From a virus, in IMG/VR virus record IMGVR_UViG_3300002460_000081, positions 1 to 39,337 of that record: a DNA stretch of 39,337 nucleotides; one strand, given 5' to 3'. The notes under the pieces were generated by a model. That model did no database searches, had not been told where the DNA came from, and was given only the letters and a program-made list of their open reading frames with translations. Below are positions 862-33,760 of the stretch, piece after piece (positions within the stretch are counted from its first letter, which is position 1; each line of letters begins with the position of its first letter). The translations under genes were made by a program, and so were the position numbers.

Positions 862-3728
862 TGGCAAGCAGTCCGATTGACCTTACCGCAGGATTCGCGG
901 AAGAAGAAAAGAAGAGACCGTCCAGGATTGATTTGTCCGCAGGGATTGTGTCTCCTGGCGGAGAAGAAGAGCGGCGACCAGGGGAAGTGAGCGCCACAAA
1001 GCCGCCAGGGGCCGTCAGCCGGTTTGCGCGCGGAGTTGGGGAAGAAGCACTGAACATCCCCAAAATGCCCATCGAGATAGGCAAGGCGCTGGTCCCACGG
1101 ACTCTGGCAGAGCAATTCCTTCCTGGGTTGAGCTTGGTCAACAGGATGGTGATTGATCCTGCCAGGGAACAGTTCGGCAAGGCGGCGGGGCGATTCCAGG
1201 AAGGAAGGTGGGTGGAGGCTGCGGGACATGCTGCCGCTGGAGCCTTGCCCCTGCTGGGACCCATGGCGGCCAGTCTAGGAGAGCAGGCGGGAGAAGGCGA
1301 CATCGCAGGCGCGGCTGGCAGAGCTCTGGTGCTGGGAGGGTTGCCGTTTCTTCCAAGGGGCGTGAGGGCGTTGCGGGGGAAGGTGTCGCTGCCGAAAGCG
1401 CCAGCGCGCGCGCCACTGGCCTCAAGGTTGCGCGGGAAGGCTAGAAAGGCGGAAGGCCGGTTGGGTGAGATCACACAGGAGGGGAAGCCGCGATTGCCGG
1501 AGGAAATCTCCGCTGAGATACTGCGCGACGTTGCGACAATCCGTGAAACAGGAACCATCGGCGAAACAATCAAGCCTGCCGTGCGGGATGCGGCGCGAGA
1601 GGCATTTGGAAGCGAAGTGCGCGTTATTTCCGTGGAGAAAACCGTACGAACCAAGGAAATGCTCGTCGAACTTGACAAAAGATTCCAGGAGATCAAGAAA
1701 GCACCGGAAACCACCCCCGCCGATAAAATGAACCTGGAGCTTCTGAGCCATCAGCGCCGACTGCTAGCGGACCGCATAGCAGCCGAAAGGCGACAATGGG
1801 CCAGAATCGGACACGAGTACCAGAATGCGTTTGACGGGGTTTCGGAAGCTACTCTAAAGGAACTGGAACGCTTTGGAATCAACGTAAGGCAAATGGCTCG
1901 TCCGCGAGACCCCATTACGACCGGCTTAATTCGATCTATCAGGGATAGAAAGTGGGGCGAAGCGGCTAGGTACGCCACCGATCAAATAAGGCTCAATCTG
2001 TTCTCGATTGGCTCCTGGACCTTGGACATGGTCGGAAACGCCTCTGAGCTTTCAGGGCAGGCAGCACAGGCGATTGGGCGCGACCTGGTTTATGCCGCCA
2101 GGACAGGACAAGTCAAGTTCCCGGCCATTGAGGGAATAGGAAGAGCTTTCGGCGACCGCTGGCGCAAGGCGAGCTTGCCAATGGATGCGGCTATCGAGGA
2201 AGCCTTCGGGCAAACCGTTGGTGGAGAGATTGTGAGTGGAGCCGGGAAGGGTTCTCTGCTACGAAGGTTCCGCGAAGGGCAGGGCGGGTTGGCAAGAAGA
2301 GCTGGAAGGGCATTGCTTCCCGTTGGAGAACGCGGCGCTTTCACTTATCGCTCCACGCCAGCCAGCGCCGCTTTTGACGTTTTGCAAGGTACGCCGCTCT
2401 ATCTGAAAGGAACTATGGACATCATGGCGAAGCGGCTGTCAGCCACGGCAAATATCTGGAGGGACGCCATCAAAGCTGCGGACGCCAAAGGCTTGAAGGG
2501 CGTCGAGAGGCAAGACTTCTACAAAAACTATTTCGAGAACCTGCCTAAAGAAACTCTCGAAACCGCTATCCGGGAAGGCAATAAGGCCGGTTTCAATCGG
2601 CCCCTTTCCAACTTTGAAGAAGCGGTGGCGAGATCAACGCCAGCAAAGTTGTTCCTGATGGGCTTCCCGCGATGGGGTTTCCAGTTTACACGGTGGGCCG
2701 GGGAGATGCTCGGATATAACCCAGAACTTCTGTCAAAAATAAAGCGCGGTGCAGCAGGCCCAGAGGAAATTGGCGGCTATCTGGCAAAAACGGCCACCGG
2801 CTACGGCGGCCTGATGGCGATAGACCACTTCCTTTACGACAGGGTTGACTTTGATTCGATGGAGTACGTTACCGAGGATAATAACCGAGTGCGACTGAGC
2901 GGGCGGGAGCCGTTTGCAAGCGCCCTGTGGTTTTTGGCCTTGGTAAAAGGGGATGCCGACAAAGCATCTGCGGCTTTGAAATATGTCTCTGCGCCAGGAG
3001 CCGAAGTGTTGGGACAGAAAAAGATTGGTGGCCTACTGGGTGGAATCTTTACCTCGATAGGGCAGGCTATCGAGAATCCACAAAACAACCCGGTTGCTCT
3101 CAAGAGAGAGATGGAAAACATGCTGAACCGGATGCTTCCGGGACAGGCCATCCTGAGCACGATAGCTGGGATCATTGACCCAACTTACAGGGAAGGACTG
3201 GGTGCCGGATTGCCGGGAGTAGCGCAGACTCTACCGGCACGGCCAAGCCGAACTACCGGAGAGCCGTTCCGTCCGCGACAGCGACTTTTTTTGCCATTCG
3301 TCGGGGAGATTGGACCGAGCATTCCGGCGATTCGCGGAACCCCCATTCCGGGATTTGCGCGCCAGTTGGACCCTATCGAAAAACTGTTGACCCGGTACGG
3401 AAGAAACATTTATCGCGGCTTGCGCACACCCATTGCAGGATTTCCAGCAGGAGAAGCACCGCGAGAGCATCGCCGCGAGTGGGAAGAGGAATTTGGCAAA
3501 AACAGAAAGAAGGTTCTCGAATCACTGGCGGAGAGGTGGCAGAGCGGAGAACTGGAAAGGCTTGAAGATGAAAATGTCTTGGACCATATAAAGAAATTGG
3601 AAAGCCGAGCCAGCCAAGCGGCTACCAGAACCATCAACCAGAGGTACGGGACGCCCGCAAAATTGCCACGGCGACCAACCACAAGAGAATTGGCGCGCCC
3701 TAACATTTATCAGAGGTTGCAACCGTGA
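861..3728 (+). CDS. large internal virion / DNA-ejection-type protein
   Basis: A 955-residue protein starting at ATG overlapped by the previous stop. The N-terminus repeats a short motif (IDLTAG, IDLSAG), followed by a Gly/Ala-rich amphipathic stretch (about residues 80-180), then long charged helices. A central part has Trp-containing helices near FPRWGFQFTRW (about residue 610). The C-terminal 100 residues are highly charged and helical. Size, composition and position before the fibre-like genes match podovirus internal virion proteins that form the ejection conduit. No catalytic motif (for example a transglycosylase) was found. The function is inferred from position and composition. Confidence 0.7.
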   Translation: MASSPIDLTAGFAEEEKKRPSRIDLSAGIVSPGGEEERRPGEVSATKPPGAVSRFARGVGEEALNIPKMPIEIGKALVPRTLAEQFLPGLSLVNRMVIDPAREQFGKAAGRFQEGRWVEAAGHAAAGALPLLGPMAASLGEQAGEGDIAGAAGRALVLGGLPFLPRGVRALRGKVSLPKAPARAPLASRLRGKARKAEGRLGEITQEGKPRLPEEISAEILRDVATIRETGTIGETIKPAVRDAAREAFGSEVRVISVEKTVRTKEMLVELDKRFQEIKKAPETTPADKMNLELLSHQRRLLADRIAAERRQWARIGHEYQNAFDGVSEATLKELERFGINVRQMARPRDPITTGLIRSIRDRKWGEAARYATDQIRLNLFSIGSWTLDMVGNASELSGQAAQAIGRDLVYAARTGQVKFPAIEGIGRAFGDRWRKASLPMDAAIEEAFGQTVGGEIVSGAGKGSLLRRFREGQGGLARRAGRALLPVGERGAFTYRSTPASAAFDVLQGTPLYLKGTMDIMAKRLSATANIWRDAIKAADAKGLKGVERQDFYKNYFENLPKETLETAIREGNKAGFNRPLSNFEEAVARSTPAKLFLMGFPRWGFQFTRWAGEMLGYNPELLSKIKRGAAGPEEIGGYLAKTATGYGGLMAIDHFLYDRVDFDSMEYVTEDNNRVRLSGREPFASALWFLALVKGDADKASAALKYVSAPGAEVLGQKKIGGLLGGIFTSIGQAIENPQNNPVALKREMENMLNRMLPGQAILSTIAGIIDPTYREGLGAGLPGVAQTLPARPSRTTGEPFRPRQRLFLPFVGEIGPSIPAIRGTPIPGFARQLDPIEKLLTRYGRNIYRGLRTPIAGFPAGEAPREHRREWEEEFGKNRKKVLESLAERWQSGELERLEDENVLDHIKKLESRASQAATRTINQRYGTPAKLPRRPTTRELARPNIYQRLQP

Positions 3729-3761
3729 AAGGAACAGGCGAATAACGAAAGGAGCAAGATA

Positions 3762-4142
3762 ATGGCGATTGATTTTGACGAAGTTCGGCACATGAGATTT
3801 GGACAGAGTGAAAAGGTGGTGGTGGAGGCAACTGCCACGGGCACGGCCACCTCCCGCCCGTTCCGCCTGCCGCGACCCTACCGCCATGCCGGGGAGACAT
3901 GGCCGCAAGTCATGTTTCAGTTTGTGGTGGCGAATGGAAGCATTTCGGCCCTGATTGCCACTTTGCAGGTATCTTTGGACGGCGGGACGACCTATTCCAC
4001 CTTCGTAGCGGGAGTTGATTTTGCGGCGGTAGCGGCCCAGGCTCTGAACCTGAATGCCGGGAGTGACGCAATCTATCGCTGGAACATCACGACCTTTACC
4101 GGCGCGGATACCCCGAAGGCCAACATTTACGCTGTAGTCTAA
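3762..4142 (+). CDS. small beta-rich virion protein
   Basis: 126 residues, with an SD-like GAAAGGAG before the ATG. It is predominantly beta, with alternating polar and hydrophobic residues, and contains a DGGTTYSTF segment of the kind seen in phage head-tail joining or fibre-attached beta-sandwich proteins. There is no signal peptide, unlike the genes that follow. It sits between the large internal protein and the exported fibre-like proteins. A structural role is likely but unproven. Confidence 0.6.
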   Translation: MAIDFDEVRHMRFGQSEKVVVEATATGTATSRPFRLPRPYRHAGETWPQVMFQFVVANGSISALIATLQVSLDGGTTYSTFVAGVDFAAVAAQALNLNAGSDAIYRWNITTFTGADTPKANIYAVV

Positions 4143-4170
4143 GGCGCGGAGATCGAAAGGAACTGGACAG

Positions 4171-5682
4171 ATGAGAAAATCACTTTTTACCTTAATCGCA
4201 TTCGTCTTGCTGGGAATCCCTAAAGCCGAAGCGCAGTTCCCGCGCATCTTCTCCGCTGCCGCCGCGAAAACGGGGGGATGTACTATCCTCCAGTTGTGGA
4301 TTGGCACGGATGATCCAGCGTTCTACTACTGCGATCCGGTCGCAGGGGAATGGAAAAAACTGATTCCTTCCGGCAGCACAGTGGCGCTGGGCGATCTGCC
4401 GACGGGAACCGCGAACCAATACCTGAAAACCAACGCCGGGGAAACTTCTCTGGAGCATGTTACGTTATCGGTCGGAACCGCTGGAACTGATTTTGCCATC
4501 GCGCATGGAGTAGGGACGACCATTTTTAATCTGCCGGATGCCTCCGCTACTAATCGCGGCGCATTACTTTCGGCAGACTGGACTATATTCAACAATAAAA
4601 GTGATCTAACCGCCGATGCCACGCTGAACACTATCCAAAAAGGCGACGGCACGAACCTGGTGAATTCACAGATCACTGATAGCGGAAGTCTAATCACCTT
4701 GCCGGGCGCAGTAACATTTAGCAGCGTGGGAGCTATCACCATCCCCGACACCACCACTTCTACAACCGGTGTGATCTACAAGGGTGCGGATCGGTTCGTT
4801 CACAACTTCCACCATCCCACCGGGGATTCGGCTGTTCCTCTTGGACAGAACACCTTTGTGGGAGTTACTGCCGGAAATCTCACGATGGGGAGTACCGCCA
4901 CAAGCACATCCCATGGTTCTTTAAACTCCGTCCTTGGTTTTCAAGCGTTTTTTAATAATACCCTAGGCTATTACAATGCAGCCTTTGGTGTGAATTCTCT
5001 TTATACTAACACAACCGGCTACGAAAATGCAGTCTTTGGTGCGCTTTCTCTTTTTAGTAATACAACAGGCTACGAAAATGCAGCCCTTGGTTTGAGTGCT
5101 CTTTTTAGTAATACAACAGGCTTTAGCAATTCTGCCCTTGGCAGGGAAGCGGGTAGGTTCATAGCTGATGGAAGCACGCCAAATCAGACCAGCAACACTT
5201 CTGTTTACTTGGGTAATCTTACCAAGGCAAATGCGGATGGAGATGCCAACGAAATCGTCATCGGCTACAATGCTATCGGCGCAGGCTCGAATACGGCCGT
5301 ACTCGGTAATTCCAGCGTAACCAAGGTTTACCTGGGAAGTTCGGCGGGCACTTCGCTATTACAAACGCAGCGGGTTGACACCGCCACTAATTGCTCTGAC
5401 TCTGCCGGAGATGCGGCTTGTGTGGCCGCATCAGCAGGCTCCGTCGTGATTGACGCCGCCGACACCAACACGGTGGTAAGCACCACTGCCGTAACAGCCA
5501 ACAGCCAAATTTTTATTATGGAGGATTCCAGCCTGGGGACGCGGCTTTCCGTAACCTGCAACACAACGACAGGGCGGCTCTACACGATCACGGCCAGGAC
5601 TGCCGGAACTTCTTTCACGATTACGGCAAGCGCGGCTCCGACAACCAACCCGGCGTGCCTGAGCTATTGGGTGGTGAATTAA
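4171..5682 (+). CDS. exported tail-fibre-like repeat protein
   Basis: 503 residues. The N-terminus is a textbook type I signal peptide (charged MRK, a hydrophobic core, then KAEA before QFPR), odd for a phage fibre. The middle holds adhesin or fibre-type repeats: a 17-residue unit based on GYENAxxGxxSLFSNTT occurs about three times (roughly residues 265-320). An NEIVIGYNAIGAGSNTAVLG segment follows, which in many fibres precedes an intramolecular chaperone. No S74 chaperone is present here; instead there is a beta-rich Cys-containing C-terminal domain. The next gene starts 2 bases after the stop. It could be a virion fibre or a host-surface protein; the signal peptide favours export. Confidence 0.75.
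   Translation: MRKSLFTLIAFVLLGIPKAEAQFPRIFSAAAAKTGGCTILQLWIGTDDPAFYYCDPVAGEWKKLIPSGSTVALGDLPTGTANQYLKTNAGETSLEHVTLSVGTAGTDFAIAHGVGTTIFNLPDASATNRGALLSADWTIFNNKSDLTADATLNTIQKGDGTNLVNSQITDSGSLITLPGAVTFSSVGAITIPDTTTSTTGVIYKGADRFVHNFHHPTGDSAVPLGQNTFVGVTAGNLTMGSTATSTSHGSLNSVLGFQAFFNNTLGYYNAAFGVNSLYTNTTGYENAVFGALSLFSNTTGYENAALGLSALFSNTTGFSNSALGREAGRFIADGSTPNQTSNTSVYLGNLTKANADGDANEIVIGYNAIGAGSNTAVLGNSSVTKVYLGSSAGTSLLQTQRVDTATNCSDSAGDAACVAASAGSVVIDAADTNTVVSTTAVTANSQIFIMEDSSLGTRLSVTCNTTTGRLYTITARTAGTSFTITASAAPTTNPACLSYWVVN
4966..5145 (+). repeat. 51-bp tandem repeats in the fibre-like gene
   Basis: Imperfect 51-bp units encode the 17-residue repeat. Two central units both begin with GGCTACGAAAATGCAG and end with TTTAGTAATACAACA, and flanking units are more diverged. 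The segment is visibly more A+T-rich than its surroundings, suggesting recent expansion or import of this module. Confidence 0.75.
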
Positions 5683-5683
5683 C

Positions 5684-7105
5684 ATGAAAAAAACTTTTTG
5701 GGTCATTCTGCTCATATTAGGGATTACCAGTATGGGCTGGACACAATCTGATCCCGCAGGACAGATTGTTCCTCGCGGACCAACGCCACCGGCAAATTGT
5801 GATGTAGGCGAGATTTATTTCGACACGGATGCTACGGTTGGCCAGAACTGGCTCGGTTGTACTGCCGCAGATACCTGGACCTTGCTGGGCGATGGGGGGG
5901 CCGGTGGCGGATACGACACGGTTGACGATGAGAATGCTCCGCTCACACAGAGAACAACGCTGAACTTTGAAGGAGCGGGAGTATCCTGCGCTGATGACAC
6001 GGATCAGACGACCTGTACAATAGCTGGTGGGGGCTCTACGACGTTCGATCTGGTGGGAGCGGGGACCAACACGACTGCGGCAATGGTGGTGGGTTCGGGC
6101 GCGTCGCTGCGCAGCGCGGCGGGTATCTTAGGGCTTCCAAACTCTATTACTCCTCCGGCCACTTGCACGGTTGGGGATGTCTATTTCGATAGCGACGCGG
6201 CTGCCGGGCTTCGCTTGGGCATCTGTACGGCGACGGATACCTGGACATGGATGGACAACCCCTTCGGGAGTTCCATTGGGGCCTCGGAGGTGGACGCCGA
6301 TATTGCCACGCAAGCGGAACTGGACTCCCACACCGGGGCGACGGACGCCCACAGCGCCACTGCCGCCAACACAGCGGAGCGCATTGTCCTGCGGGATGCT
6401 TTAGGAGACTTCGCAGCGGGCACGATCACGGCAACACTGACGGGGAATGTAACGGGCGCTCTGACGGGCAACGCGGATACGGCGACAACCGCGACCACAG
6501 CCAATGCGGGCGACTCGGCAACGGACTTCTTCGCCTCCGGCACAATCGGGGCTGCCAGACTGCCCAACCTGGAAAGCCTGAATGGGGCGGTAACGGATGG
6601 GCAGGTTCCCGACAATATCACGGTCAGCTTGGCGGCGACAGCCACGGCGCTGGCTGCGGATGGAGCCAACTGCACGGCGCAATTCCCGCTTGGCGTGGAT
6701 GCCTCAGGCGCGGTGCAGGACTGCACCACGGTCAGTTCGGCGCAAATGGCGGCGGCCAACAAGTCATTCAACAAGGCCGTATCCTGGGAGACCCCGACCA
6801 CCGATGACAGTTACAAGTTCATGGCAATGCACGAGAGCCATGCCGTTACTCTGACGCGGGTATTCTGCGCGGTATTGGGCGGAACCAGCGCAACCATCAA
6901 CCTCCGCAAAACATCTGAGGCGGCTCCGTTCAGTGGGGGCACGGCGGCGCTGACTTCCAACTTGGTTTGTGATTTGGATGGCGCAAACAGCGTTACGTTT
7001 TCCAGCGCCGGGGTAGCCGCAAACACGCCTCTGATGGTTGAGGTAACGGCGGTGAGCGGCGTGGTTACCAACATCATCATCGGGATTCACGCGACGAGGG
7101 ATTGA
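5684..7105 (+). CDS. exported fibre-like protein with duplicated Cys module
   Basis: 473 residues. A signal peptide (MKKTFWVILLILGITSMGWT) is predicted to expose QSDP. Two homologous Cys-containing modules follow: one near residues 30-65 (CDVGEIYFDTDATVG ending in WTLLG) and one near residues 158-193 (CTVGDVYFDSDAAAG ending in WTWMD). A fibre-like low-complexity region follows (GNVTGALTGNADTATTATTA), and then a beta-rich C-terminal domain. The gene begins 2 bases after its neighbour and its stop overlaps the next start. A cell-surface or virion-fibre role is inferred; the export signal is visible. Confidence 0.7.
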   Translation: MKKTFWVILLILGITSMGWTQSDPAGQIVPRGPTPPANCDVGEIYFDTDATVGQNWLGCTAADTWTLLGDGGAGGGYDTVDDENAPLTQRTTLNFEGAGVSCADDTDQTTCTIAGGGSTTFDLVGAGTNTTAAMVVGSGASLRSAAGILGLPNSITPPATCTVGDVYFDSDAAAGLRLGICTATDTWTWMDNPFGSSIGASEVDADIATQAELDSHTGATDAHSATAANTAERIVLRDALGDFAAGTITATLTGNVTGALTGNADTATTATTANAGDSATDFFASGTIGAARLPNLESLNGAVTDGQVPDNITVSLAATATALAADGANCTAQFPLGVDASGAVQDCTTVSSAQMAAANKSFNKAVSWETPTTDDSYKFMAMHESHAVTLTRVFCAVLGGTSATINLRKTSEAAPFSGGTAALTSNLVCDLDGANSVTFSSAGVAANTPLMVEVTAVSGVVTNIIIGIHATRD

Positions 7106-7755
7106 TGAAAAAATACTTCCTGGCCGTTTTGATGCTGTCGGCCCTGAGTCTGTGGGCGGTAACTTATTCTCAGCCGTTTGCCGCTGGGCATGGCTTTGCA
7201 GCCACGCAGTCGGGGGCCTGCGATACCAGCCTGACCGATGCCGATGACGCAACGAATGGCAACCCGGCGGCCAGCGTAAAAACTACCTGCGTTGGCCGAA
7301 ACGATGCGCCTACCTCGACATGGAAGAAGGCGCTGACCTGGGAAGCGATGGGCGTTACGTCGGGGAACAACGTAACGCAGGTAGACGGTAAGTACGACCA
7401 CGCCATCATTGCCAGAAGCCATGCCTCGACGCCAGCAACTGGGCCCCTAGAGATTTGGAACAGCGCAGACACGGCAACCTGCATGGCCTCTGACCCGGAA
7501 GCGTTATTGCAATATGCTTCCGGCACGGGCGGTACGGCATGGGCCACAAGGGACGCTACGGGCGCTGTAGCGGTCAATGCGGGATGCCAGGCTTCTACAA
7601 CTACGGTTACTGTAAGAGGGGCTATCCGTCCAAATACGGGAAACAATGCCAGCGCCACTACCCAGGTCAACGTGGACAACCTAGTGCTTACCATTACGGA
7701 AGTAACCCCATCGGGCCGGAGCCGGGTGATTATCAGCAGGCTGGAGTTGGAATGA
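7105..7755 (+). CDS. exported beta-rich protein
   Basis: 216 residues from the ATG that overlaps the previous stop (TGATG); a TTG one codon earlier is also possible. The signal peptide MKKYFLAVLMLSALSLWAVTYS is predicted to expose QPFA. The mature part is Thr/Ala/Asn-rich and beta-like, with several Cys that could form disulfides in the periplasm. It overlaps the next start by 4 bases. No family is recognised. It belongs with the two preceding exported proteins by composition and linkage. Confidence 0.65.
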   Translation: MKKYFLAVLMLSALSLWAVTYSQPFAAGHGFAATQSGACDTSLTDADDATNGNPAASVKTTCVGRNDAPTSTWKKALTWEAMGVTSGNNVTQVDGKYDHAIIARSHASTPATGPLEIWNSADTATCMASDPEALLQYASGTGGTAWATRDATGAVAVNAGCQASTTTVTVRGAIRPNTGNNASATTQVNVDNLVLTITEVTPSGRSRVIISRLELE

Positions 7756-8297
7756 GAAGCAGTTTTGCAATTCTGTTTGTCGCAGTCGTAGTAGCTTCCG
7801 GCTGCGGCGGGGGGAGGGTGCCGGTGACCCAGCCAACACCCCCGGTAGCCTCCCCTGCTATTGAAACGGAAGAAGATGTAATTGTGCGCGAATCCCTGGA
7901 TGAGGCCATGGACAGGGTGCGCAGGATTGACTTGGAGGTCAAGGGGCCGGAAGTTTACCAAGTGATCTTCGTGGAGTCGAATTGCACCGGCAGAACTGGA
8001 GGGGGAGGATTCCTCGCGGGACATTTAATGAAAGAGGATGAGCTTAGCTACCTTCGGGCGAATCCCGATTACACAACCCTGATTGATGGGAACCCGTGTG
8101 TCCAGGGGTACTCCGATATTGTAGGGGTGGCGATCCCTACCCTCTACATGGTTAAAGGGGCCGCTCCGACTCATGAATTTATGCACTTGATCTGGTTTCT
8201 GAATCATGCCGGGAACATGTGTCCGAGTGGACTATTTTGGGAGTACCAGTTTATCGAGCATGGCGGAGAGTGCGATCCACTGAGGTATGAGCCATGA
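7752..8297 (+). CDS. putative HExxH metalloprotease-like lipoprotein
   Basis: 181 residues from an ATG overlapping the preceding stop. The N-terminus is a lipoprotein signal (hydrophobic core, lipobox ASGC, then Gly-rich linker). The C-terminal domain contains HEFMH at residues 141-145, a zincin-type HExxH zinc site. A Cys lies 12 residues after the second His, and HGGECDPL starts at His170. The same layout occurs in the next gene, so the motif is unlikely to be chance. The third zinc ligand may be His170 or the Asp of ECD. It is predicted to be membrane-anchored and periplasmic or surface exposed. The substrate is unknown; protease activity is inference from the motif. Confidence 0.65.
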   Translation: MRSSFAILFVAVVVASGCGGGRVPVTQPTPPVASPAIETEEDVIVRESLDEAMDRVRRIDLEVKGPEVYQVIFVESNCTGRTGGGGFLAGHLMKEDELSYLRANPDYTTLIDGNPCVQGYSDIVGVAIPTLYMVKGAAPTHEFMHLIWFLNHAGNMCPSGLFWEYQFIEHGGECDPLRYEP

Positions 8298-8935
8298 ACA
8301 ATAAAATCCAGCAACCGCTAAATGTTTTTCTTCACTGGTTTTTACTGGTTGCGGTTTTCGTTCTGGCCGTTAGGTTTGCAGCCGGGCAGGAAGCGGATTA
8401 TCCGCCGGAGTGGGTGAAAAACCGCATAGCAGTACCTCAAATCGTCAAGCGCTTTGGGAACAATTACAGTATCTATGTCCACCACGGCTCCACCATATTC
8501 ATCATTGGACCGATCAGCAAGGAGGACAGTTCGGTGGCGATGGGAACGGCGATCCGGGAACTTCGCGCAGTCGCGGAAACCATTGCCATACCCAGACGCT
8601 ATGCGGTAATTTATCATCGCTCGATCATTCAGGAAGATGGTTGTCTGGAGCAGGGAATATGGGACTACGAAGGCAGAAAATACGATCATTGCTACATTGG
8701 ACTTACAGATATGGGAACCTACGAGCTTCCCGTGATCTTCCTTGTTAGCCGGGACGTGGGTATCTTGATCCATGAAATCAGACACATGCTTTACTACCTG
8801 ATTCGGAAGGATGAGCGCTGTAAATTTTACCCGCAGATCACCACAACACACATGATCGGGCATGGCGGGGCTTGTGATCCCCTTGGTAGCGGAAGACCGT
8901 GGGGGGTGGCTTATGGAAGCCTGGAAAGGAGATAG
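8294..8935 (+). CDS. putative exported HExxH metalloprotease-like protein
   Basis: 213 residues starting in a 4-base overlap with the lipoprotein gene. A hydrophobic signal or anchor segment ends FAAG before QEAD. It contains HEIRH (160-164), a Cys 12 residues later and HGGACDPL starting at His190, in the same order and nearly the same spacing as the upstream lipoprotein. Both also share an upstream C-x-x-G-x-[ST]-D segment followed by a Pro about 7 residues on. These are therefore diverged paralogues, one lipid-anchored and one soluble or signal-anchored. A zinc peptidase fold is inferred; no known peptidase family was recognised. Peptidoglycan-crosslink, lysis or surface-protein cleavage are possible roles. 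Confidence 0.65.
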   Translation: MNNKIQQPLNVFLHWFLLVAVFVLAVRFAAGQEADYPPEWVKNRIAVPQIVKRFGNNYSIYVHHGSTIFIIGPISKEDSSVAMGTAIRELRAVAETIAIPRRYAVIYHRSIIQEDGCLEQGIWDYEGRKYDHCYIGLTDMGTYELPVIFLVSRDVGILIHEIRHMLYYLIRKDERCKFYPQITTTHMIGHGGACDPLGSGRPWGVAYGSLERR

Positions 8936-9451: not shown

Positions 9452-9721
9452 ATGATGTCTTGGTTAAAGAACAAACTGTTTTACTGGTTCATTGGGAAGG
9501 AGGCAAAGAAATTGGCTGAGAAAACACCGAAGAGTTGGAGAACATCCCTGGGTGGGCTAGGCGCTTTGTTCGCGGCGCTCGGGGCAATCCTGCAACCTTT
9601 GTTTGACAATGATCCAGCGACCAACCCAGACTGGGCAGTTGTTTCGGGGTTGCTTGCTCTAGCATTTGCCGCATTCAAGGCCCGCGACCAGAAGGCGCAT
9701 GAGGAGGAGGCGAAGAAATGA
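9452..9721 (+). CDS. holin-like membrane protein
   Basis: 89 residues from the first of two adjacent ATGs after GGAGG. A short amphipathic N-terminal helix is followed by a Lys-rich linker. One hydrophobic segment (SLGGLGALFAALGAILQPLF) and a second weaker one (VVSGLLALAFAAF) follow, and the protein ends in a charged tail (KARDQKAHEEEAKK). This pattern is common for phage holins. The stop overlaps the next start (ATGA). Together with the genes at 8942 and 10191 it gives three candidate lysis membrane proteins. Confidence 0.6.
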   Translation: MMSWLKNKLFYWFIGKEAKKLAEKTPKSWRTSLGGLGALFAALGAILQPLFDNDPATNPDWAVVSGLLALAFAAFKARDQKAHEEEAKK

Positions 9722-10191
9722 TCCGCTTACTTATCGGTATGTTACTGGCCGGTATGTTACTGGCCGGGGAAGCTCTTCGGGCGCAGACCTACTCGGCCTT
9801 CCTGGGGGCCAGCGTGGACGGGGCGGCCCAAACGAACGCCGCCGGGCACGCCTGCCTGTTTGTCGAGCCGGAGTCCGCCAGCTTCTACTCGATCTCCTGC
9901 CTGAGCGCCAGGGGGCCGGATGTCAGGAATCCTGTGTATGACCTCGTGCAGGGCTTTGGGAGGCCCCTGTTCACCGCAGGGCGGTTTACGGTATCAGCTT
10001 TGACCGGCGGGGGCATCACCACGCGACCTGACGCCACCTACGGCCTATTCGACGGGGGGTTCATGCTGGAATACCGACTGAAAGACCAAATGGGGATCGT
10101 GGGCCTGTTCAAGGGGGCCTATTCGCCCGGTTTGGTGGGCCAGCGGTGGGTGCCGAGGTTTGGGGTGGGTCTACGGTACGGGGGGCGCTGA
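9718..10191 (+). CDS. putative outer-membrane beta-barrel protein
   Basis: 157 residues. The signal peptide contains an in-frame 15-bp duplication (GMLLA twice) and ends ALRA before QTYS. The mature part alternates polar and hydrophobic residues with short turns, and ends with FGVGLRYGG, resembling an outer-membrane barrel closing strand. There are two Cys in the mature part. Phage-encoded outer-membrane proteins of this type (for example Lom in lambda) alter the host surface, so superinfection exclusion is a possible role. The family itself is not recognised. The stop overlaps the next ATG. Confidence 0.55.
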   Translation: MIRLLIGMLLAGMLLAGEALRAQTYSAFLGASVDGAAQTNAAGHACLFVEPESASFYSISCLSARGPDVRNPVYDLVQGFGRPLFTAGRFTVSALTGGGITTRPDATYGLFDGGFMLEYRLKDQMGIVGLFKGAYSPGLVGQRWVPRFGVGLRYGGR

Positions 10192-10448
10192 TGGCGGCAG
10201 AACTGGACGGCATTTACGAGAAAATCGGAAGGCTGACGGGCGATATTAGTGGATTGTCGCATTCCCTGGACACTCTGCGCGATGAGTCGAATCGGCGCTT
10301 CCAGGAGCAGGGTGAGCGAATGGGCGCACTGGAAAAATATCTCACGCGAAACAACAGTAGGGCCCGCCCGATCTTTATTTCCGCCGGTTCTGGGGGAGTT
10401 GGGGCCGGACTGATATGGATTTTTATTAGGATGTTGGAGGGCGGATAA
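10191..10448 (+). CDS. coiled-coil plus C-terminal TM protein (XhlA-like topology)
   Basis: 85 residues starting in the previous stop (TGATG). The first 50 residues are a charged coiled coil (SHSLDTLRDESNRRFQEQGE region). The last 25 are a Gly-rich transmembrane helix (SAGSGGVGAGLIWIFIRML). This architecture matches small lysis-associated proteins of the XhlA or hemolysin-accessory type. Position before the endolysin candidate supports a lysis role. The assignment is by topology, not sequence identity. Confidence 0.55.
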   Translation: MAAELDGIYEKIGRLTGDISGLSHSLDTLRDESNRRFQEQGERMGALEKYLTRNNSRARPIFISAGSGGVGAGLIWIFIRMLEGG

Positions 10449-10974: not shown

Positions 10975-11091
10975 ATGTACCGTTACCGCTGCGCCGGAAC
11001 AGGGCGTTTCCTATCCGAGAAGCAGGCGAAGAAACGGAGGCCGTCCACATGGATCAGGGAAAGGATCAAGAAGCCCAAGAGGTGCTCCTAA
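10975..11091 (+). CDS. small basic protein
   Basis: 38 residues beginning MYRYRCAGTGRFLSEKQAKK and ending in a strongly basic tail rich in Arg and Lys. The SD AGGGGGTC lies 4-5 bases upstream. The start region is duplicated at 10449. It overlaps the first 43 bases of the peptidase gene in another frame, so the two may be translationally coupled. Short basic proteins with an MxRYR start are frequent in phages; the function is unknown, and nucleic-acid binding would fit the charge. Confidence 0.5.
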   Translation: MYRYRCAGTGRFLSEKQAKKRRPSTWIRERIKKPKRCS

Positions 11092-11573
11092 GCAATCATT
11101 TTCGCAAAGTCGAGTTTGAGCGAAGCGGGCCGATTCCGCCGGAAGCCTTGCCTTGCTTTACGGAAATGTGCGAGAAGATTTTAGAGCAGGTGCGGGCGAG
11201 GTGCGGCGGGAAACCCATCATCATCACGAGCGGGTATCGTTCCCCGGAAGTCAATGCGATGGTGAGCAAGACCCCCAACAGCCAGCATATCGCTACGGCT
11301 GAGCATTGCGCCTGCGACTTCAAGATTCCAGGAGTTGATCTGGAGGGTGTTTTTGACTGGATCAGGCTGGATTCCGGGTTGCCGTTCGACCAGGTGATTT
11401 TAGAGCGGTCCGCAGCGAATGAGCCGCCGCGAGTGATCCATGTTTCTTATACCAGGAGCCTGCCGCGCCGCCAGGCGCTGGAGGGCCTGACTTACGGACG
11501 CAGCAGCTATTTTGCCCGCGCCGTAGGGATCGGGCCGATCCCCAACACCCCGGAACTGTGGGGGGATTCCTAG
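11049..11573 (+). CDS. M15-family D-Ala-D-Ala peptidase-like endolysin
   Basis: 174 residues. It has the M15_3-type pattern: SGYRSPEVNAMV, then SQHIATAEHCACDF with zinc ligands His80 and Asp90, and the third ligand in VIHVSY (His131). The family cleaves peptide cross-links of peptidoglycan. There is no signal peptide, so it would need one of the upstream holin candidates for release. The loop between His80 and Asp90 has HCA in place of the usual small residues, but the ligands are intact. The stop codon interlocks with that of the convergent minus-strand gene. Confidence 0.85.
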   Translation: MDQGKDQEAQEVLLSNHFRKVEFERSGPIPPEALPCFTEMCEKILEQVRARCGGKPIIITSGYRSPEVNAMVSKTPNSQHIATAEHCACDFKIPGVDLEGVFDWIRLDSGLPFDQVILERSAANEPPRVIHVSYTRSLPRRQALEGLTYGRSSYFARAVGIGPIPNTPELWGDS

Positions 11574-22091: not shown

Positions 22092-22231
22092 AGTGTCACC
22101 GCAACCGTGATGATGCAGGCTCCTGCCCAATACAAGGCGCGTTTCCAGTCGCCAGTAAACAAATAGGCCGCCGACAAAACGATGTAGTAAGCTATCAGGA
22201 CGCGCGGGCCGTAGAGGGCGATGTGGCTCAC
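22088..22231 (-). CDS. small membrane protein
   Basis: 47 residues from a GTG that overlaps the methyltransferase stop (GTGA). There are two hydrophobic segments: RVLIAYYIVLSAAYLF and LYWAGACIITVAVTL, separated by TGDWKRA. It is coupled on both sides. Small phage membrane proteins in early operons often disturb host membranes or block superinfection; no evidence here distinguishes these. Confidence 0.5.
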   Translation of the reverse strand: MSHIALYGPRVLIAYYIVLSAAYLFTGDWKRALYWAGACIITVAVTL

Positions 22232-23268
22232 AGCAGGGTCCCCTGTTCGGCGGTTTCCTTCCAGGGCTCGAATTGGAGCCGCGCCTGCGCGAGCCGCTTG
22301 ACCGCGATTTCGCAATATTTCTCCTCGATCTCGATGCCGATGGCCTTCCGGCCAAGCTGCTTTGCCGCAACCAGCGTTGTCCCACTGCCCATGAAAGGAT
22401 CAAGCACGGTTTCTCCTTCATCGCTGTGGAGTCGCACGAAAAAGGCTTTCAATTCGACCGGCTTTTCAGTTGGATGATGCGTTATCTGTGGGATGATTTT
22501 TCCGAATCTTATCACGTTTGGAGTTGCCAATCCGCCATTCCACTTGCTCGTCTGGCTCACCAGCACACACTCCCAATTGCGCCGATAGTGCCAACCCATG
22601 CCTAAGCCGCCCTTGTCCCATACAACACACATCTTGAAACCGAGAATTTCGTCCATCCATAATGACCAGCGAGCGAATTGTGGATCGGGACCGCCGCCGC
22701 AGCAGCAGCAGCAGCAGCAGCCTTTATCCAATAGACGTTTCGATTGAGTGAAAAGCAAACGCACCAATTCGTTTGCCTCCGGCCCATCATTCGCAATAGG
22801 GCGGGCCGGGCCGCTTTCGCCACGCCCCAGAGCGGCTTCCCGTTTCGCTATCAGGTCACCGTCATTATTGTTATGGCCATACGGCGGGTCTGTCAGCACC
22901 AGGTCCACGCTCTTGTCCGGCAGCAGGGGGAGGATTTCGCGGCAATCCGCGCAATAGATTACAATGCCCGGCTCTTCGTAGTAAGGTTTTGGTAGACTGG
23001 CATCAGGCGTATGGGATCGCAACCCACTAGATTTTAGTGTGTCAGGGGAGCTTGGCTTCACTGAGGCCGCCTGTTGGCGTCTCGCTAACTTCCGCTCCCC
23101 TTCCCCACCTTTCAGAGTTTGGGACTTGGGCAAGACTTCGCTCTGAAAACCTTTTTTCTCTGGCGTTCGTGATTGCCCATGTCCCAACATATCTATCGCA
23201 GAGTGCGCTTTCCCTAAGAACTTGTCAAGGAAATTCTCAACTATTATTACCAGTACCAGCAGGCCCAT
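22228..23268 (-). CDS. N4-cytosine/N6-adenine DNA methyltransferase (beta class)
   Basis: 346 residues. TDPPYG (DPPY at 127-130) precedes FMGSGTT near residue 296, the beta-class order. The target-recognition region lies between. A run of seven Cys followed by three Gly (KGC7GGGPDPQFARW) is encoded by seven GCA repeats on the plus strand. The 90 residues before PYYEEPGIVIYCADC have no counterpart in typical family members, and no good SD precedes this ATG, so the true start may be internal. A lone methyltransferase probably protects phage DNA from restriction. Confidence 0.8.
   Translation of the reverse strand: MGLLVLVIIVENFLDKFLGKAHSAIDMLGHGQSRTPEKKGFQSEVLPKSQTLKGGEGERKLARRQQAASVKPSSPDTLKSSGLRSHTPDASLPKPYYEEPGIVIYCADCREILPLLPDKSVDLVLTDPPYGHNNNDGDLIAKREAALGRGESGPARPIANDGPEANELVRLLFTQSKRLLDKGCCCCCCCGGGPDPQFARWSLWMDEILGFKMCVVWDKGGLGMGWHYRRNWECVLVSQTSKWNGGLATPNVIRFGKIIPQITHHPTEKPVELKAFFVRLHSDEGETVLDPFMGSGTTLVAAKQLGRKAIGIEIEEKYCEIAVKRLAQARLQFEPWKETAEQGTLL
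22699..22719 (-). repeat. GCA trinucleotide repeat encoding poly-Cys
   Basis: Seven consecutive GCA triplets on the plus strand encode seven cysteines in the methyltransferase. Length changes here keep frame, so they would alter the poly-Cys loop without inactivating the gene. Confidence 0.85.
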
Positions 23269-23928: not shown

Positions 23929-24448
23929 ATGCCGTTCTCTCCCGTTGTCTAATTGGTGGAGTGTTGAATGCTTTTGCTATTGACCACCCAGCGCTCAATC
24001 TATCCCGCAAAGACGACCTTGCTATACCGATCCGCTCAGCCCATTCAGGCATCGTTAAAGATTCTCCATTAAAATGCAAAAGCACATTGCGATGTTTCCA
24101 ATTCCGTGCTTGTTCTTTGGCAGTAGCCCAGCGGCAATTCTCCGGCTCATAATTACCATCGCCATTCGGAAACCTGTCGAGGGAATGATACCGGGATGGC
24201 TTCACTCCCATGTCTGCATAAAAAGACTCGAAAGAAAGCCACTTGGCACAGACAGATATGCCACGTCCACCATAAAGCAGATAATCCTTAAAGTTTCTAT
24301 TTCTGCATCTGGTTAGCATTCCGGCCCATGCCCGATATTCATTTGGCCGCGTTCTATAGGTTGGTCCGGTATGGTCATACTTCCTGAGATTTTCTCCGCG
24401 TTTCATGGCAGCAATCTTACCATACGCCACACGGGAATAAAAGGTCAA
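23897..24448 (-). CDS. HNH-like endonuclease with C-terminal HTH
   Basis: 183 residues. YRAWAGMLTRCRNRNFKDY, LYGGRGISVCAKW and DGNYEPENCRWATAKEQARN form the pattern of HNH-like or homing-endonuclease proteins in phages. The C-terminal MPEWAERIGIARSSLRDRL is a helix-turn-helix. It starts in a 4-base overlap with the recombinase stop. It could be a selfish element or a packaging or recombination nuclease; position between recombinase and methyltransferase does not settle this. Catalytic residues are not certain. Confidence 0.65.
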   Translation of the reverse strand: MTFYSRVAYGKIAAMKRGENLRKYDHTGPTYRTRPNEYRAWAGMLTRCRNRNFKDYLLYGGRGISVCAKWLSFESFYADMGVKPSRYHSLDRFPNGDGNYEPENCRWATAKEQARNWKHRNVLLHFNGESLTMPEWAERIGIARSSLRDRLSAGWSIAKAFNTPPIRQRERTAFGTFKKASLH

Positions 24449-25362
24449 TACACAACAAGTGCTTCATTACCCGATTCCCTGTTTTTCAGTTTTTCCATGA
24501 GGGCCACGATCCGGTCCCGGTGCTCCGGCATGAATCGCGCATAATGCATCTCCGCGATCCGCGGACTGATGCCCAGGAATCTAGCACAGTCGGCTATGCT
24601 CCCGCCCACTAGCAGGATTTCACTTGCCCTGGAATGCCGAAATCTATGGTTCTGCGCCCCTTTCACCCCGGAAAGTAGATAGACTTTCCGCAGAAGCACA
24701 CTCAGGTCGTTCAGGACATAAGCCGGCTTGCGCTGGCCGTCCTGGAAATAATACTCCCCCGCCCCCGGCAGGCAGTCAAGTGCCTGTATGACTACCGGGA
24801 CTGTGGGGTGCTCGATCTGCGCCCCAGTCTTGATCGTTTTCAGTCGCAGGAACCCGTCCGGACAGAAGGCGTCCCTGCGAAGCTCCGCAACGTCGGAGAT
24901 TCGCAGGGCGTGGTGGCGCATCACTAGAATGGCAGCTTTAGCCACCAGGCGGGCCGTGGCTGGCTTACCGATGTGGTCACAGGCTTGGAGTATGGCAATG
25001 TTCTCTTCCTGGCTGTAGGGGCGCTTATCGGGCGGCTGATACCGGGGAGCTTTCAGGTTCCGGGCCGGGGAAATTTGTATGAGCTCGTTTTCCTCACAGA
25101 AGCGGAAGAAGGTCTTGTAGGTCTTGACCCGCGTAATTGCGGTGTTCTGGGAGATCGGCAGCGAAGCCATGAACTGCGACAGGTGCAGCGCTTTCAAATC
25201 TCCCAGGTCCAGATGCTTGCTCGCGGTCCAGGCCGATAACTGCCCCAGAATCAAGCGATAGTGTCTGGCAGTAGAGGGCTTGACGTACTGAGCTTTCAGC
25301 GAGTCCAGCCACAGCGATTGGGCAGTTGCGATGTCCATTAGTTTGCGCGGTTGTGTGGCCAT
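24445..25362 (-). CDS. int: tyrosine recombinase / integrase
   Basis: 305 residues with GGAG 9 bases before ATG. The N-terminal SAM-like domain is followed by HALRISDVAELRRD (Arg154), HRFRHS (His239, Arg242) and EMHYARFM with nucleophile Tyr274. The position usually held by the second His/Trp (LGH) is LGI here. It is probably a XerC/phage-type integrase or resolvase. It sits inside the early operon, not next to a tRNA, so dimer resolution or site-specific lysogeny are both possible. Its first bases and SD are duplicated at 26033. Confidence 0.85.
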   Translation of the reverse strand: MATQPRKLMDIATAQSLWLDSLKAQYVKPSTARHYRLILGQLSAWTASKHLDLGDLKALHLSQFMASLPISQNTAITRVKTYKTFFRFCEENELIQISPARNLKAPRYQPPDKRPYSQEENIAILQACDHIGKPATARLVAKAAILVMRHHALRISDVAELRRDAFCPDGFLRLKTIKTGAQIEHPTVPVVIQALDCLPGAGEYYFQDGQRKPAYVLNDLSVLLRKVYLLSGVKGAQNHRFRHSRASEILLVGGSIADCARFLGISPRIAEMHYARFMPEHRDRIVALMEKLKNRESGNEALVVY

Positions 25363-31722: not shown

Positions 31723-32166
31723 ATGGGCAACACGCGCCGCGATCTTGAAAAAGGGAAAACCCCCCGGCTTTCCAGGAAGAAAACTCCCATCCCGGAAGGC
31801 ATCAGCATCCCGGAATACCTCACCAGAATTGACAGGCTGGCAGTGGGGGTGTTGCCGCACGGCCTGACCGACCCGCGCTTTTACAACTGCATCAAGGCGG
31901 CGATTAACTACCTGACCGGGCGCGGGATTCTGCTGCGGGCGGGGCAATCGCAACCCGCGCAGCAAAACACAACGATCTACAACCAGGTATTGATTTTGCA
32001 AAGCATGTCCGAGCCGGAAAAGGAGAAAATGCTTGCCGACTTCAGTAAAGGGCTTCTCGCAGGAACAGTTGAAAGAGTTGGCCTTGATCGAAGCGACGCA
32101 GCAGACGCTTCAGAAGATCAAGGAATCCCCTCTCTGGTGGCTGCGGAAATACACAAAAACAGCTGA
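31723..32166 (+). CDS. putative terminase small-subunit candidate
   Basis: 147 residues. MGNTRRDLEKGKTPRLSRKK, then PEGISIPEYLTRIDRLAVGV and a C-terminal helical tail. It overlaps the large terminase gene by 134 bases in another frame; the tail after about residue 103 could be shorter if its real end is earlier. Position suggests the DNA-recognition subunit, but no HTH signature is obvious. Confidence 0.4.
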   Translation: MGNTRRDLEKGKTPRLSRKKTPIPEGISIPEYLTRIDRLAVGVLPHGLTDPRFYNCIKAAINYLTGRGILLRAGQSQPAQQNTTIYNQVLILQSMSEPEKEKMLADFSKGLLAGTVERVGLDRSDAADASEDQGIPSLVAAEIHKNS

Positions 32167-33760
32167 CCAGCAATGGTCGGAACATGGATTGCCGACGGCC
32201 TGCAACTCGTTTCCTGACTACGAATACCTGGACATTGTTTTCGATTTCCTGGAACATCGCCCCACGATGATTCCTACAGCCAACACGCGGATTCGGCTGC
32301 TTCCCAAGGCGCGAAAACTTCTGATGTCCTGGGCCGTGATCGGGAAACTGGTCCACGCCTGCCAGACGAAAGAGCACCAGGAAGTCATTGTTCAGTCCAA
32401 GACCGAGGATGACGGCATCTATCTGATTGACTATGCCAAAACGCTTTACAAAAATCAGCCGGAATGGTTAAAGAGGGCATATCCGCTCAAAGACAACAAG
32501 GACTTGAGCGCTTTCCCAATGACTTCCCTGGAATGGGCTAACGGGTCGTTCATTGAGGCCATCCCGCAAGGAGCTTCCAAGCTGAACACCCGGCATCCCA
32601 GCTATCACTTCATGGATGAGGCATCATTCCATGACGAGGGCCGCGAGGCATACAACTCTTCCGTGGCCGCATCGTCTTTCATCATCGTGGTGTCATCTGC
32701 TTATCCGGGCTGGTTTCACGAACTGCTAAATGAAGATCAGTTTCCCTTGCACGGAAAGAGAATAGCGACGGGAGTTGCCTACACGGAGACCAACCGTGGG
32801 CTGCCCGCGCTTTGGATTCATCATACCGCGCACCCTGAGCGCAGGTCGCAAGAATGGCGCGATGCGGAGGAGATGAATTACACCAGCAAAGCGGAGTTTT
32901 CACGGCAGCAGGACATCAACTTCACGGCGGGCGGCGGTGAGAAGGTTTTGAGGGAACGGCTGGAGACCAGGTGGAACGATATTGTCATTACGGATCCGGA
33001 GTGGAGACCGCATTCAGAATGGAATTACGATGCCGGGTTTGACTACGGGAAAAACCATCCTACAGCGTTTGAAGTGCTGGCGCGGGACCGCGATGGGGTG
33101 ATGATCGCGGTGCAGGAGCACTATCAGTCCAAGCTCACGCCCGGTGAACATGCGCAGATTATCAGGAAAATGCGGCTGCCATGCGCAGGGGAGCCTTTGA
33201 CGCTGGACAAGATTGGTCTGACGTGGGCTGACCCGTCTATCTTCCCAGACACAGTTGCCGGAGACGATAAATTCACAAGCTACCAGCAATTGTTGGAAGC
33301 GAATGGGAGCCTGAAACTTGTGAAAGGCTTGCGGGGAATGGACTTGTGGGTGGCGGATGAGATTCTCAGGATGTGGCCCGCGCAAGGTGAAATCCGGTTC
33401 AAGATATGGTGCCCCAAGCCGATTACGAGGAAAGCGGAAGGTACATACCAGCAGGGTTGTCCCAACCTGCTGTGGGAATTGCTGAATTTGAGGCGACGTG
33501 AGGTTTCGCCCACGGTTGCGGAGAAAAAGGGCCAGCCGGAAGGCTTGGTGGATACAAAAAACGACGCCTTTGACGCGCTGAAATACCTTTTGACTGGCGG
33601 TGGTCCGCGCGAATTGCTGGAAACAGACGAGGAAAGGTGGCGTAACCGCGTGGCGGAAATCAAGAAGCGCAACCCAAAGATAGGAGTGATGGGGCTGAAC
33701 CGGCAGTACATGAAGTTTGCTGCGGAAATGGCAAAGGAAGAAGTGGTGACGTACCGATGA
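32033..33760 (+). CDS. terL: terminase large subunit
   Basis: 575 residues. A TTG start 7 bases after AAGGAG gives PTSVKGFSQEQLKELALIEA. LLPKARKLLMSW is the ATPase P-loop-type region of this terminase class, HFMDEASFHDEG the Walker B/DEA motif. The nuclease half has FDYGKNHPTAFEV, ADPS and DAFDALKYL with acidic metal ligands. It packages DNA through the portal and cuts it. The long overlap with the upstream gene makes the start the least certain part. Confidence 0.85.
   Translation: MPTSVKGFSQEQLKELALIEATQQTLQKIKESPLWWLRKYTKTADQQWSEHGLPTACNSFPDYEYLDIVFDFLEHRPTMIPTANTRIRLLPKARKLLMSWAVIGKLVHACQTKEHQEVIVQSKTEDDGIYLIDYAKTLYKNQPEWLKRAYPLKDNKDLSAFPMTSLEWANGSFIEAIPQGASKLNTRHPSYHFMDEASFHDEGREAYNSSVAASSFIIVVSSAYPGWFHELLNEDQFPLHGKRIATGVAYTETNRGLPALWIHHTAHPERRSQEWRDAEEMNYTSKAEFSRQQDINFTAGGGEKVLRERLETRWNDIVITDPEWRPHSEWNYDAGFDYGKNHPTAFEVLARDRDGVMIAVQEHYQSKLTPGEHAQIIRKMRLPCAGEPLTLDKIGLTWADPSIFPDTVAGDDKFTSYQQLLEANGSLKLVKGLRGMDLWVADEILRMWPAQGEIRFKIWCPKPITRKAEGTYQQGCPNLLWELLNLRRREVSPTVAEKKGQPEGLVDTKNDAFDALKYLLTGGGPRELLETDEERWRNRVAEIKKRNPKIGVMGLNRQYMKFAAEMAKEEVVTYR

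Follow-up and report, generated by a model that had tools for sequence, protein, structure and literature searches.

What kind of protein is encoded by two adjacent phage genes that each carry an HExxH motif, and do these genes serve host lysis? The window analysed here is the whole 39,337-nucleotide stretch of IMG/VR virus record IMGVR_UViG_3300002460_000081. Gene A (7752..8297, plus strand, ATG to TGA) encodes a lipoprotein of 181 residues with an HExxH domain, and gene B (8294..8935, plus strand) encodes its paralogue of 213 residues. The two genes adjoin in an ATGA overlap, and the start of A overlaps the stop of the preceding gene in the same way; the three genes are therefore probably translated as a coupled set. 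The N-terminus of A, MRSSFAILFVAVVVASG-C, reads as a lipobox (ASG-C18), in which the Ala at -3 is less typical than Leu. The Gly at +2 suggests an outer membrane location. A short Pro-rich linker follows the lipobox, and the domain begins at about residue 44. In B, residues 11-31 or so are hydrophobic and AAGQEAD comes next; this region may contain a site for signal peptidase I or serve as a membrane anchor. The sequence-only reading had placed the pair at 7752-8935 and described one protein as lipid-anchored and the other as exported. The coordinates are correct, and the N-termini, as we read them, agree with that description.

A and B share four motifs in identical order. All lie on the plus strand. 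In A these are a C-x-x-G-x-S-D segment (C116VQGYSD, 8097..8117), HEFMH (residues 141-145, 8172..8186), an invariant Cys157 located 12 residues past the second His of HExxH (8220..8222), and HGGECDPL (residues 170-177, 8259..8282). The counterparts in B are a C-x-x-G-x-T-D segment (C133YIGLTD, 8690..8710), HEIRH (residues 160-164, 8771..8785), Cys176 at the same distance of 12 residues (8819..8821), and HGGACDPL (residues 190-197, 8861..8884). The number of residues between HExxH and the HGG block is 24 in A and 25 in B. Each of these motifs and spacings had been pointed out before, and we find them in both proteins as described. A single BLASTP comparison of A with B aligns 70 residues at 27% identity (E=5e-6), and none of 5000 shuffles reached the A-B similarity score. 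Only A and B, 2 of the 225 open reading frames of at least 60 residues in the window, contain HExxH. Judged by their sequences, A and B are diverged paralogues, as the sequence-only reading had held. A recent tandem duplication can be rejected, as the best local identity is just 27-29%.

A third member, L006, is a 224-residue lipoprotein encoded in IMGVR_UViG_3300031999_000005 (103,756 bases), a phage contig that looks unrelated to the window; it was found by a motif scan of viral contigs. It contains LAG-C, a long Pro-rich linker, CVHG, HEVLH, a Cys at +12 and HGGACDPF. A profile made from A and B alone retrieves L006 at E=1e-12; L006 is absent from this profile, yet it was first spotted with a pattern derived from A and B. 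That pattern selected for HExxH and HGGxCD, and it did not select for the Cys at +12, CxxG, the lipobox or the order of the four Cys. L006 is 33% identical to A and 19% identical to B. Its upstream segment keeps CxxG without [ST]D, and its HGG block lies 22 residues after HExxH and has P-F in place of P-L. Its lipobox (LAG-C16) has Gly at +2, as has that of A, and by their sequence motifs both read as phage lipoproteins.

CxxG, HExxH-x11-C and HGGxCDP are invariant across the three proteins. The invariant columns of the whole domain are C, G, P, V, H-E-H, C, HGG, C, D and P, plus a few upstream residues; in the catalytic half, where identity is 19-33% over the three proteins, the invariant residues are chiefly C, G, HExxH, C and HGGxCDP. 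The mature domains have exactly four Cys each, in the same order, a pattern that fits two disulphides in an oxidising compartment. The conservation of Cys remarked on in A and B thus holds in three of three members and extends to four residues, with which the disulphide proposed earlier would be compatible. The pair itself, which was to be looked for in other phages, is not conserved: the second phage carries just one gene of the family, with no partner.

The sequence-only reading had called the family unrecognised, and we found no credible match for the domain of A, B and L006 in Pfam, PHROGs or NCBIfam. None of the known peptidase families matches the domain, and there is no match among PDB sequences. 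Close-relative scans of viral contigs with A alone, B alone or a two-row A+B profile returned no relative. Two motif patterns gave one true relative in viral contigs (L006), the remaining matches being out of frame or due to chance, and a looser motif gave 77 places, all chance-like. A three-row profile again found L006 alone in viral contigs and nothing in genome contigs, where the motif pattern matched 76 places with no convincing homologue on inspection. There was no credible tblastn match among phage and plasmid records, and no match in a profile search of ~1,900 sampled genomes from five phyla, outside which the phylum of the host may lie. The searches for a fourth member were partly pattern-based, and such patterns would miss diverged members. 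A, B and L006 can fairly be called a small, previously unlabelled phage family that is rare in what was searched.

HExxH, the motif of zincins (clan MA), is invariant in three of three members. It can also occur in proteins that are not peptidases. The AlphaFold models of A and B are poor (pLDDT 51.6 and 48.8) because the alignment holds just three sequences. Foldseek, VIA-align and BFVD comparisons with these models returned no zincin among the matches, which says little at a pLDDT of ~50. In both models HExxH sits in a long helix that directly follows a strand and is preceded by a helix and further strands. This modelled order is the one expected for the N-terminal subdomain of zincins (PMC3890501) and lends weak support to such a fold.

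The metzincin and Asp-zincin signatures HExxHxxGxxH and HExxHxxGxxD are absent, the six residues after HExxH being LIWFLN, MLYYLI and GIWWSN in the three members. There is also no invariant Glu after HExxH in the three members, as would be expected of gluzincins; a Glu precedes HGG in A and L006, and B has Gly there. If the proteins are zincins, their third metal ligand would therefore be the His or the Asp of HGGxCDP, both of which are invariant and C-terminal to HExxH. The likeliest third zinc ligand in A would be His170 of HGGECDPL. Zincins (MEROPS clan MA), including mini-zincins such as DUF1025 (PMC3890501), resemble our family in having HExxH in a predicted long helix, a small domain with a short region past the motif, and a possible downstream His or Asp ligand. 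Apart from the missing signatures, A, B and L006 differ in being extracytoplasmic with four conserved Cys, whereas DUF1025 proteins are presumed to be intracellular (PMC3890501), and zincins show no detectable sequence or structure match to A and B, for which the models are poor.

Our preferred reading is that the family consists of extracytoplasmic, disulphide-stabilised, metal-dependent hydrolases of phage, the metal being probably zinc, and most likely of zincin-type peptidases. We give this a probability of roughly 0.55, and any one target a much lower one. In such an enzyme, the metal would be bound by HExxH, whose Glu would be the catalytic one. The third ligand would be the invariant His of HGGxCDP, or else its Asp, brought near by a disulphide that links the Cys following HExxH to the one in the HGGxCD block. 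A would be exported and lipid-anchored, and B either exported or anchored by its N-terminus. If the proteins are active, the HGGxCDP frame would define a new small zincin subfamily.

Where such enzymes might act can be considered from the neighbouring genes. A and B are the last of a run of five genes for exported proteins (4171-8935), in which neighbours overlap by 4 bases or stand 1 base apart. The run begins with a spike-like protein (4171..5682, plus strand; PHROG tail spike) that has a signal-like N-terminus ending in AEAQ and a weak K1-lyase C-terminal match, below the Pfam cut-off. It continues with a fibre-like protein (5684..7105, plus strand) and a smaller exported protein (7102..7755, plus strand) whose start overlaps the preceding stop; both have signal-like N-termini. 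Signal-peptide-like or lipoprotein-like starts on five consecutive phage genes, one of them tail-spike-like, are unusual for virion proteins. A similar run of signal-bearing genes recurs in L171 (9796-15048). The L006 gene is preceded by three signal-bearing genes (436-445, 931 and 126 residues) and followed by genes matching head and structural families, and no lysis gene was recognised in its surroundings. The lipoprotein is the sole gene common to the window and the 38 kb compared of the L006 contig, and the upstream exported proteins of the two phages have no detectable similarity to each other. From these two loci, we lean towards the view that the association kept in both phages is with exported fibre-like genes and not with lysis.

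A and B would probably be made late, co-translated with the fibre-like and spike-like exported proteins, and would target a protein at the envelope of the host. Two such roles are favoured over lysis: cleavage of a receptor or other surface protein, which would prevent re-adsorption or superinfection, or processing of the co-expressed exported fibres. Destruction of a receptor or processing of exported proteins appears to fit better than a lysis device. Stated in full, and only tentatively, with the odds clearly against it as a whole, our proposal is a new family of extracytoplasmic proteins of zincin type, HExxH-x11-C-x(10-13)-HGGxCDP, in which an outer-membrane-anchored enzyme and a soluble paralogue, together with exported spike and fibre proteins, would at a late stage of infection reshape or destroy receptors on the host surface.

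The other of the two roles, that A and B are maturation factors that trim or release the spike-like and fibre-like proteins encoded directly upstream, is possible if doubtful. It is in line with the tightly coupled run of five exported proteins and with the signal-bearing, fibre-like genes that likewise lie just before the L006 lipoprotein, but no cleavage site was identified in the upstream proteins, and a common substrate would need some other means of recognition, since the upstream proteins of one phage show no detectable similarity to those of the other.

The sequence-only reading had named a lysis device as one possibility. We consider it rather unlikely that the lipoprotein and its soluble partner form such a device and cut protein links between outer membrane and wall as infection ends, replacing spanins or assisting them. 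In the window, 2 kb separate A and B from a downstream M15 peptidase endolysin (11049..11573, plus strand) in a neighbouring lysis region, with genes for small membrane or exported proteins in between, and the late region has no other convincing lipoprotein. The endolysin region is probably separate from A and B, and the sole other family member speaks against a lysis role: it is located amid structural genes with no recognised lysis gene nearby, its record has no match to the M15 endolysin, and its phage has no partner gene. The N-terminus of L006 weakly resembles Rz-like spanins (E=0.012), but this resemblance is confined to the lipobox and the Pro-rich linker. Rz/Rz1 spanins (PMC6139136) are similar to A and B in combining a Pro-rich lipoprotein with an adjacent exported protein, overlapping genes and conserved periplasmic Cys, whereas A is a homologue of B, both carry an HExxH domain, and the second phage has one counterpart only. 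A two-component spanin made of an unrelated coiled-coil inner-membrane i-spanin and an o-spanin lipoprotein was rejected on account of the homology of A and B and the single copy in the second phage.

A further argument for lysis comes from Listeria, where a pair of phage origin, the metzincin Mtz and a TIMP-like lipoprotein, alters the envelope and sensitises cells to lysis (PMC8235301). As in our locus, adjacent phage-derived genes encode a secreted HExxH protein and a lipoprotein with an action on the envelope. The Listeria lipoprotein is a substrate, however, described as TIMP-like and not as a protease, and the host is Gram-positive; A and B both carry HExxH, are paralogues and lack the metzincin signature. 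The likeness of the two pairs is one of arrangement only.

A and B could also be non-enzymatic lipoproteins that block receptors, as in Cor/Llp/Ltp-like exclusion, with HExxH as a structural metal site. To our knowledge, the known exclusion lipoproteins are non-catalytic blockers of receptors or injection and have no HExxH. Such a role would suit a phage that is probably temperate, as judged from an integrase (24445-25362) and a DNA methyltransferase (22228-23268), both on the minus strand. It would also suit an outer-membrane-type lipoprotein in a late structural cluster, since tested exclusion lipoproteins of coliphages such as mEpimmI Lpp are placed within structural gene clusters (PMC11893012). 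Ltp is likewise a superinfection-exclusion lipoprotein of a temperate phage (PMC3952083); the analogy to these phage-encoded lipoproteins is one of arrangement only. Invariance of HExxH in three proteins in which most other positions vary would be unusual for a mere plug, and paralogue B is not a lipoprotein, so we regard this explanation as unlikely too. If the preferred reading of A and B as enzymes is right and they are active, they would be a catalytic counterpart to passive exclusion lipoproteins, namely an internally made surface protease anchored in the outer membrane. That HExxH is coincidental and the family an unrelated disulphide-rich exported protein would agree with the lack of a zincin match from the structure models, but is very improbable, as all three members, though diverged, retain HExxH, its Cys spacing and the HGGxCDP block.

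Several other genes deserve mention. A tblastn search of 50,697 phage records gave no match to the terminase large subunit of the window (32033-33760, PHROG), and no relative turned up in viral contigs, so the phage looks very divergent. A 157-residue protein (9718-10191) with no family match starts with a signal-like sequence, and its C-terminal part could be read as a small outer-membrane β-barrel. Near the endolysin, a 100-residue protein (10146-10448) with a coiled-coil-like body and a C-terminal hydrophobic segment is a holin or spanin candidate. In L171, the major capsid gene is immediately followed by a gene for 359 residues (3276-4355) whose product looks like a LAGLIDADG-type homing endonuclease.
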